The translations under genes and the position numbers were made by a program. A model generated the notes under the pieces. The model was given only the letters and a program-made list of their open reading frames with translations. It was not told where the DNA came from and made no database searches. Positions 6,806 to 7,700 of a DNA stretch of 64,000 bases are shown one piece after another. The stretch spans positions 1-64,000 of the forward strand of contig SOJX01000142.1 of the NCBI GenBank assembly GCA_004376375.1, given 5' to 3'. The stretch comes from Planctomycetota bacterium (lineage in GTDB: Bacteria; Planctomycetota; E44-bin39). Each line of letters begins with the position of its first letter. Position 1 is the first letter of the stretch.

Positions 6806-6836
6806 GCCGCCCCAGCGACCTGAAGAGGAGCGGGAA

Positions 6837-7700
6837 ATGACTAAAGCCGGAAAATTCTTCTACATCGTAGCGGCGTTCTTGCTGGTCTGTTCGATCTGTA
6901 CCTGCGCGTCGGCGGATAAAACAGGCAAATCCGCTTCAGGAGGCGTAAGGAAAGCGCGCGCGTTCGACAGGATACTTATCAGCGAGATCAGCGACTACGT
7001 CGGTTTTTTTTATTACCCGCATGCGTTGCATTATTATCCCCGTTGTGAAGGCGGGCAGGGAATTCCCTGTGCATGCTGCCATTTCGAAATATGCTCGACC
7101 GGAACCGAAGTTCCGGGCCCTTGCCGCATGTGCCATCAGCCTTCCGATGAAAGGACGGACATGCGCACCCGCGCGTTGTGAATGGCTACACATCGCCTGT
7201 GCAGCGGTTGCCACAGGAGACGAAACCCGAAATACCCGAAAGCGAAATCCTTCAGAAAGTGTCTTGACTGCCACAGCGCGCAGCCGGAAGAAGTGATGAT
7301 TTTCGGCAACGAGTTGAAACTGTATTTCAAGGTGAACCTGGCGGGTGGCGGTCAGGAAGGCGGGAAACTCGTCGAGGAATACATGAAGGAAAATTACGAC
7401 CTGCTGGATTTTATTCTGGTCAAGGAGAACGAGGCGGAGGTGCGGCTGAAATGCGATATCCGGATTGAGGAAAAGTTCGACGACAGGCTTATTGCAGAAG
7501 CGAGCGGCATGCGCATGTTCAAAGGGATCTGCCGCATGCGTATGTTTCACAATAAAACCGAAATTTATCATACGTTCATCGAGTCGAAAATCATAAGCGG
7601 CAGAGACGTCAATGAAATTCACAAGATTATCCTGAACTTCCTGGCCGAAAGAATTTTCAGAGCTTCCAAGGTCCCGCTTGAGAGAATAGTGGAAGAATAG
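6837..7700 (+). CDS. Tetraheme c-type cytochrome with C-terminal domain and in-frame TGA (candidate selenocysteine)
   Basis: 287 aa if the TGA at 7179-7181 (codon 115) is decoded. Residues 1-26 are a signal peptide ending ASA. Four heme-attachment motifs follow: C78ACCH82, C96RMCH100, C122SGCH126 and C142LDCH146, as in class III/c7-type multiheme cytochromes, so the protein is periplasmic or exported. The TGA lies between hemes 2 and 3, in RAL-(TGA)-MATHRLC, four residues before H119, which could be an axial heme ligand. Residues 150-287 form a domain I do not recognise. The ATG after the TGA (7182) has no ribosome site and would give a heme protein without a secretion signal, which argues for one gene. 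The TGA may be selenocysteine, a nonsense mutation or a sequencing error. A DMT transporter follows 10 bp downstream. Confidence 0.75.
7196..7217 (+). promoter_or_regulatory. Candidate bacterial SECIS hairpin downstream of TGA 7179
   Basis: CCTGT (7196-7200) pairs with ACAGG (7213-7217) and GCA (7201-7203) with TGC (7209-7211), with one bulged C and a GCGGT apical loop. The loop starts 22 nt after the TGA with G in first position, inside the 16-37 nt window known for bacterial SECIS elements. A simple six-pair alternative is CCTGTG/CACAGG. Confidence 0.55.

Follow-up and report, generated by a model that had tools for sequence, protein, structure and literature searches.

A tetraheme cytochrome family related to class III cytochromes, with a conserved in-frame TGA, very probably selenocysteine, four residues before a predicted heme ligand

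Selenocysteine (Sec) in a multiheme cytochrome is already known in kind. A 2026 review names three families of Sec-containing cytochrome type: ExtKL, the GSU2204 family, and the octaheme tetrathionate reductase family (PMC13188914). The original description put ExtKL forward as a proposed family of TGA-containing cytochromes with neither non-Sec homologues nor a detectable SECIS (PMC1914089). It has been tentatively linked to selenite reduction, in the available portion of a later paper (PMC5877670). The gene described here resembles ExtKL of Geobacter (NF040886), a multiheme c-type cytochrome with an in-frame TGA for which the available portions of both papers report no non-Sec homologue (PMC1914089, PMC5877670). 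It differs in that ExtKL, in the part of the description at hand, has five hemes, all before the TGA (PMC1914089), whereas here two hemes follow the Sec. The families TIGR04315 and NF041027 are also listed as Sec-containing cytochrome types in the available text of the review (PMC13188914). By their names, however, TIGR04315 has eight hemes where the present family has four, and the GSU2204 family (NF041027) is an outer-membrane barrel. No match to NF040886, TIGR04315, or NF041027 was obtained for any of the eight members scanned against NCBIfam (E up to 1), and on sequence grounds the family matches none of the three families in the 2026 catalogue.

No Sec-containing cytochrome of class III or of the tetraheme c3 type turned up in the literature searched, which covered few subscription papers and included the available portions of PMC13188914, PMC1914089, PMC5877670, and PMC9012536. 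Likewise, a Sec class III cytochrome was not found in the available portions of PMC12013277, PMC5029168, and PMC2398784. The combination of a c3-type member, a Sec beside the axial His, and a SECIS inside a heme motif was also not found in the literature searched.

The window, a stretch of 64,000 nucleotides from a Planctomycetota bacterium, contains eight CxxCH sites against 1.7 expected (0 of 100 shuffles reached eight), and four of the eight belong to a single gene at 6837..7700 on the forward strand, which is also the strand of all its features given below. A sequence-only reading had proposed that this gene encodes a tetraheme cytochrome with an in-frame TGA between hemes 2 and 3, and its account of the layout has held up. 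A single TGA (7179..7181, codon 115) interrupts an otherwise open frame, with two CxxCH motifs 5' of it (from codons 78 and 96) and two 3' (from codons 122 and 142). Read through the TGA, the gene gives a protein of 287 residues whose homologues have the same layout. The CxxCH scan places heme motif 1 at codons 78–82 (7068..7082), motif 2 at codons 96–100 (7122..7136), motif 3 at codons 122–126 (7200..7214), and motif 4 at codons 142–146 (7260..7274). Elsewhere in the window, CxxUH, in which Sec would replace a heme Cys, has no match, and UxxCH has two matches versus 1.1 expected.

The N-terminal export signal (6837..6908) is confined to the part before the TGA, and its Cys21 falls in the lipobox Cys column of most homologues in an eight-row alignment. 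By a strict pattern, a lipobox-like motif is present in six of the nine members of the family, and the window copy is not among them. The second part also lacks a ribosome site, as had been claimed. A ribosome-binding-site-like GAGGAG (6825..6830) lies 6 nt 5' of the ATG at 6837, and none is seen before the ATG at 7182.

Nine TGA-carrying genes, distributed over seven genomes and six families, were found among the 392 genomes of the phylum that were searched. In a search of 59 genomes, the window gene, L021 of the host genome, and the G032 genes L018 and L022 were the four strongest matches. Each of them carries exactly one in-frame TGA, and three weaker matches of that search are without one. 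L028, L029, L030, and L031 came from a profile search of 392 genomes of this phylum, and L080 from a second profile run against the same genomes. Ten matches of this second search have E < 1e-20, nine with the TGA and one, in G038, without a stop. Class-level searches (14 genomes around G018 and two around G032) gave no further member, and a related-locus search of genome contigs returned only the two G032 copies. L021, the second Sec tetraheme cytochrome of the host genome, lies on contig C6 (L060:9082-9933, minus strand).

The Sec proposal could be judged by the residue that homologues hold at codon 115, and the column holds TGA in all nine members. In each, the TGA is four residues before a conserved His, which in turn is three residues before heme motif 3; the position of His119 downstream of codon 115 is thus as first described. 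The other eight members are only 21–28% identical to the window protein. The invariant columns of the eight-row alignment, which leaves out L080, are Met1, the Cys21 column, His62, His65, the four CxxCH motifs, Pro93, Sec115, His119, and Pro131, so that in these rows Sec is conserved as strictly as the residues that bind heme. Three non-Sec relatives (L019, L020, and L023) have Glu, Glu, and Ser, respectively, at the Sec position, and their proteins finish shortly after heme 4. A version with Cys at the Sec position was not found in the family searches of the 392 genomes.

Two readings of the TGA would do without Sec. The first takes it as a true stop that separates two proteins, the second made by translational coupling from the ATG at 7182, and the TGA-ATG overlap at 7179–7184 in the window would suit such coupling. 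The overlap is peculiar to the window, since an ATG after the TGA is absent from all eight other members; the separate protein from 7182, which the sequence-only reading had set against its own proposal, is not conserved. The column also holds TGA in nine of nine members and never TAA or TAG, and the second product would have two hemes, no export signal, and no known route to c-type heme. We regard this reading as very improbable. The second reading invokes a sequencing error, a pseudogene, or another meaning of TGA, and the host genome is indeed a draft of 157 contigs. The TGA is present, however, in independent assemblies of seven genomes, and protein similarity extends to both sides of it. 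Another meaning is opposed by TGA serving as an ordinary stop elsewhere in the loci (for example at the ends of L018, L031, and L080) and by the presence of SelA and tRNA-Sec. Judged by the conserved column, this reading is in practice refuted, and its probability seems negligible.

The host genome encodes a tRNA-Sec (72.1 bits; cut-off 47), a SelA, and three SelB-like genes over the cut-off; SelB was searched in the host genome only. Each of the seven member genomes has a SelA that exceeds the cut-off, although in G071 it is split in two pieces on two contigs, and tRNA-Sec is present in all six member genomes tested (G071 left out). Sec machinery alone does not discriminate, because G022 and G038, which hold only non-Sec relatives, possess both SelA and tRNA-Sec. 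The host formate dehydrogenase gene has one TGA followed by a hairpin, which suggests that the organism uses Sec elsewhere. The features by which a selenoprotein is recognized from its sequence, namely a conserved in-frame UGA, a SECIS-like hairpin, and SelA, SelB, and tRNA-Sec, are all found here. Taken together, they make it very likely that the TGA at codon 115 specifies selenocysteine.

The three SelB-like genes of the host (L009, L010, and L011) are full-length and share 34–39% mutual identity, and one of them adjoins selA. The presence of several SelB could mean that the host has different SECIS classes.

The sequence-only reading had also pointed to a SECIS-like hairpin 22 nt after the TGA. 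Such a hairpin is found at 7196..7217, where it overlaps heme motif 3; its stem begins at 14 nt and its apical loop at 22 nt. Rules for bacterial SECIS elements, as given in the available text of PMC13188914, call for a loop of 3–9 nt with an early G, a stem of 4–16 bp, a spacing of 16–37 nt, and an MFE ≤ -7.5. When these rules were applied at the same offset 5' of every heme motif, heme 3 passed in 9/9 Sec genes and the other hemes in 10/27 cases (Fisher p 0.001). At heme 3, the mean folding energy over eight genes is -10.6 kcal/mol, whereas the other hemes give -5.1 to -6.2. L018 and L022 have their best hairpin displaced by a few bases. Synonymous recoding of the heme-3 segment gave a mean z of -1.1, with single-gene p values of 0.008 to 0.40, and this test backs the hairpin modestly and is only suggestive.

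Covariation gives stronger support for the hairpin than synonymous recoding. In the nine ungapped sequences, 88.9% of cells are paired versus 78.4 in shuffled ones (sd 2.4; 0/500), and the pairing falls to 22–48% when the partner is slid by 1–3 bases. Nine hairpin cells are changed on both sides versus 3.4 expected (1/500 shuffles). Counted by pair, double changes are not unusual (3 versus 2.1; 151/500 shuffles), and kinship among the sequences can inflate the other covariation values. The hairpin is composed of the heme motif 3 codons themselves. In the non-Sec relatives, heme 3 passes the SECIS rules in two of three cases, which suggests that such hairpins may predate Sec. More speculatively, CxxCH hairpins could have offered SECIS elements in advance of the evolution of Sec, and the overlap of SECIS and heme motif points to an easy way in which multiheme cytochromes may acquire Sec.

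The heme domain belongs, by profile comparison, with the class III (c3-like) cytochromes. All eight members scanned match PF02085 (best E 1.7e-10), and PF14522 is matched too; the window copy alone scores 16.1 bits against PF02085, under the curated 22.9. Against solved structures, the family profile finds the hexadecaheme Hmc (2e84, E 2.6e-15) and a tetraheme c3 (3cao, E 5e-7). With these class III proteins, the family shares four CxxCH motifs, a preceding H-x-x-H, an A-x-H-x-x-C-x-x-C-H at heme 3, and, in eight of nine members, a His after motif 1. Unlike them, it has Sec four residues before the axial His, a lipoprotein-like signal, and an added C-terminal domain. In the solved relatives, the Sec position is occupied by Gln (3cao) or by Lys, Arg, or Asp (Hmc repeats), with the same axial His and CxxCH next. 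Sec thus appears to stand in for a variable polar residue that is probably exposed.

The invariant His62 and His65 (7020..7031) are predicted distal ligands, which we take to be the distal-ligand H-x-x-H of class III cytochromes. His119 (7191..7193), also invariant, is presumably the distal ligand of heme IV in the c3 ligand scheme. By this analogy, four distal His can be assigned in eight of the nine members. The residue after the first CxxCH is His in all eight other members and Phe83 (7083–7085) in the window copy, so one heme of the window protein, presumably heme II in the c3 scheme, may be five-coordinate. An AlphaFold2 model built from three sequences has heme-domain pLDDT values of mostly 24–37, and this part of it was set aside. 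By analogy with c3, Sec115, on the same helix face at minus four from His119, should adjoin heme IV.

Sec could in principle be a direct, perhaps switchable, axial ligand to heme iron, most plausibly in the window copy. The Sec column is invariant in the way that heme ligands are, the window copy is without the His after heme motif 1, and its heme domain has three His outside the heme motifs compared with at least four in the other eight members. In those eight members, however, the four assignable distal His make a Sec ligand unnecessary, and the three non-Sec relatives retain His119 too. Sec stands four positions ahead of this predicted ligand and would have to take its place. Coordination of this kind is quite unlikely in our judgment, and a role as redox or substrate site next to the heme would fit better.

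The preferred reading is that the gene encodes an exported, probably lipid-anchored class III tetraheme selenoprotein in which Sec at heme IV trades electrons with the heme chain, and we hold this to be somewhat probable. UGA115 would be decoded as Sec through SelB and the hairpin formed by the heme motif 3 codons, and the product would be an envelope lipoprotein, anchored by lipid at the envelope membrane. Sec115 would precede His119, the distal ligand predicted for heme IV, by one helical turn. Its selenolate may serve as a redox or metal(loid)-binding site in direct electron exchange with heme IV, the heme chain taking the place of the resolving thiols of other selenoenzymes. In five of the nine members, Cys occurs in the heme motifs and the lipobox only, and those five hence have no internal resolving thiol. 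The likeliest direction would be reductive: the heme chain would carry electrons to a substrate that is bound or oxidised at Se, either in the periplasm or at the outer membrane. That Sec115 is a heme-wired active site seems a little short of an even proposition. More tentative is the full combination of a Sec that takes or gives electrons by a heme wire in place of thiols, perhaps a heme ligand in the copy without the distal His, with its Sec signal written in CxxCH codons.

The gene neighbourhoods bear on another role, in which Sec would trap a metal or metalloid, or would serve for docking and exchange with the disulfide of a partner, and would not communicate directly with the hemes. Two of the nine copies adjoin metal-related genes. 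At L021 (L060), a gene for a CsoR/RcnR-family repressor lies upstream and the cytochrome gene follows 36 nt behind; the repressor keeps Cys and His residues that we take to be typical of copper sensors. At L066:984-6274 (minus strand), a metal repressor, a heavy-metal P-type ATPase, a 238-residue protein, the Sec cytochrome L022, and an FmdE-domain lipoprotein are encoded on one strand. These neighbours hint at metal or metalloid chemistry in the L021/L022 subclade, and the replacement of a polar, probably exposed residue by Sec would suit a trap or docking site. Against this, the six other loci compared (the window and L061 to L065; L080 left out) have no metal-related neighbours, and a conserved partner was not found at the compared loci. 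We rate such a role as unlikely, though less so than heme ligation by Sec.

Set against the start of the window, nine loci showed no neighbour gene shared across the family, metal repressors beside two copies being the only recurrence, and no catalytic partner or substrate gene conserved beside it was found at the compared loci. The protein encoded in front of L022 was considered as a thioredoxin-like protein, a candidate that was dropped as it has no match in Pfam, NCBIfam, or the PDB; it also shows no similarity to a gene near L021.

The C-terminal domain (7290..7697) has no Pfam match, and the low-pLDDT full model suggests a weak resemblance to LptE/HpaA/CsgG-type lipoproteins. Matches of this type have Z 8–11, and the full model aligns with 8t8d_C (Z 11.0, rmsd 2.9, 131 aligned) and 8h1r_B (Z 10.1, rmsd 2.6, 113 aligned). 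Modelled alone, the domain reaches a mean confidence of 52.6, and its matches, at Z ~6, are mixed with unrelated folds. The C-terminal profiles of two subclades gave no significant match when compared with each other (probability 2.6%, E 0.017). Unlike in the outer-membrane lipoproteins LptE, HpaA, and CsgG, the domain here sits behind a heme domain.

If the preferred reading is right, the family would add to the selenoproteins a case in which Sec lies within a redox fold that is well understood, where it has no Cys counterpart. Being small and of well-known structure, class III cytochromes would make the interplay of selenium and heme directly testable. Such genes are likely annotated as broken or as two fragments, and more may be hidden. 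The pattern U-x3-H-x2-C-x2-C-H has 72 matches in the 392 genomes. Seven of the 30 matching loci that were read are family members with two CxxCH motifs on each side; the other two members, the window and G032:C110, are also among the 72 matches, besides the 30 loci read. Of the remaining 23 loci, only L117 has an upstream CxxCH, a single one. A further locus, L114 (~1501 in G202:C22), has a TGA in a long open frame, with 236 codons upstream and 175 downstream. An upstream CxxCH is absent there, and the TGA, which is followed by V-D-P-H-R-S-C-A-A-C-H, is either another Sec candidate or a plain stop.
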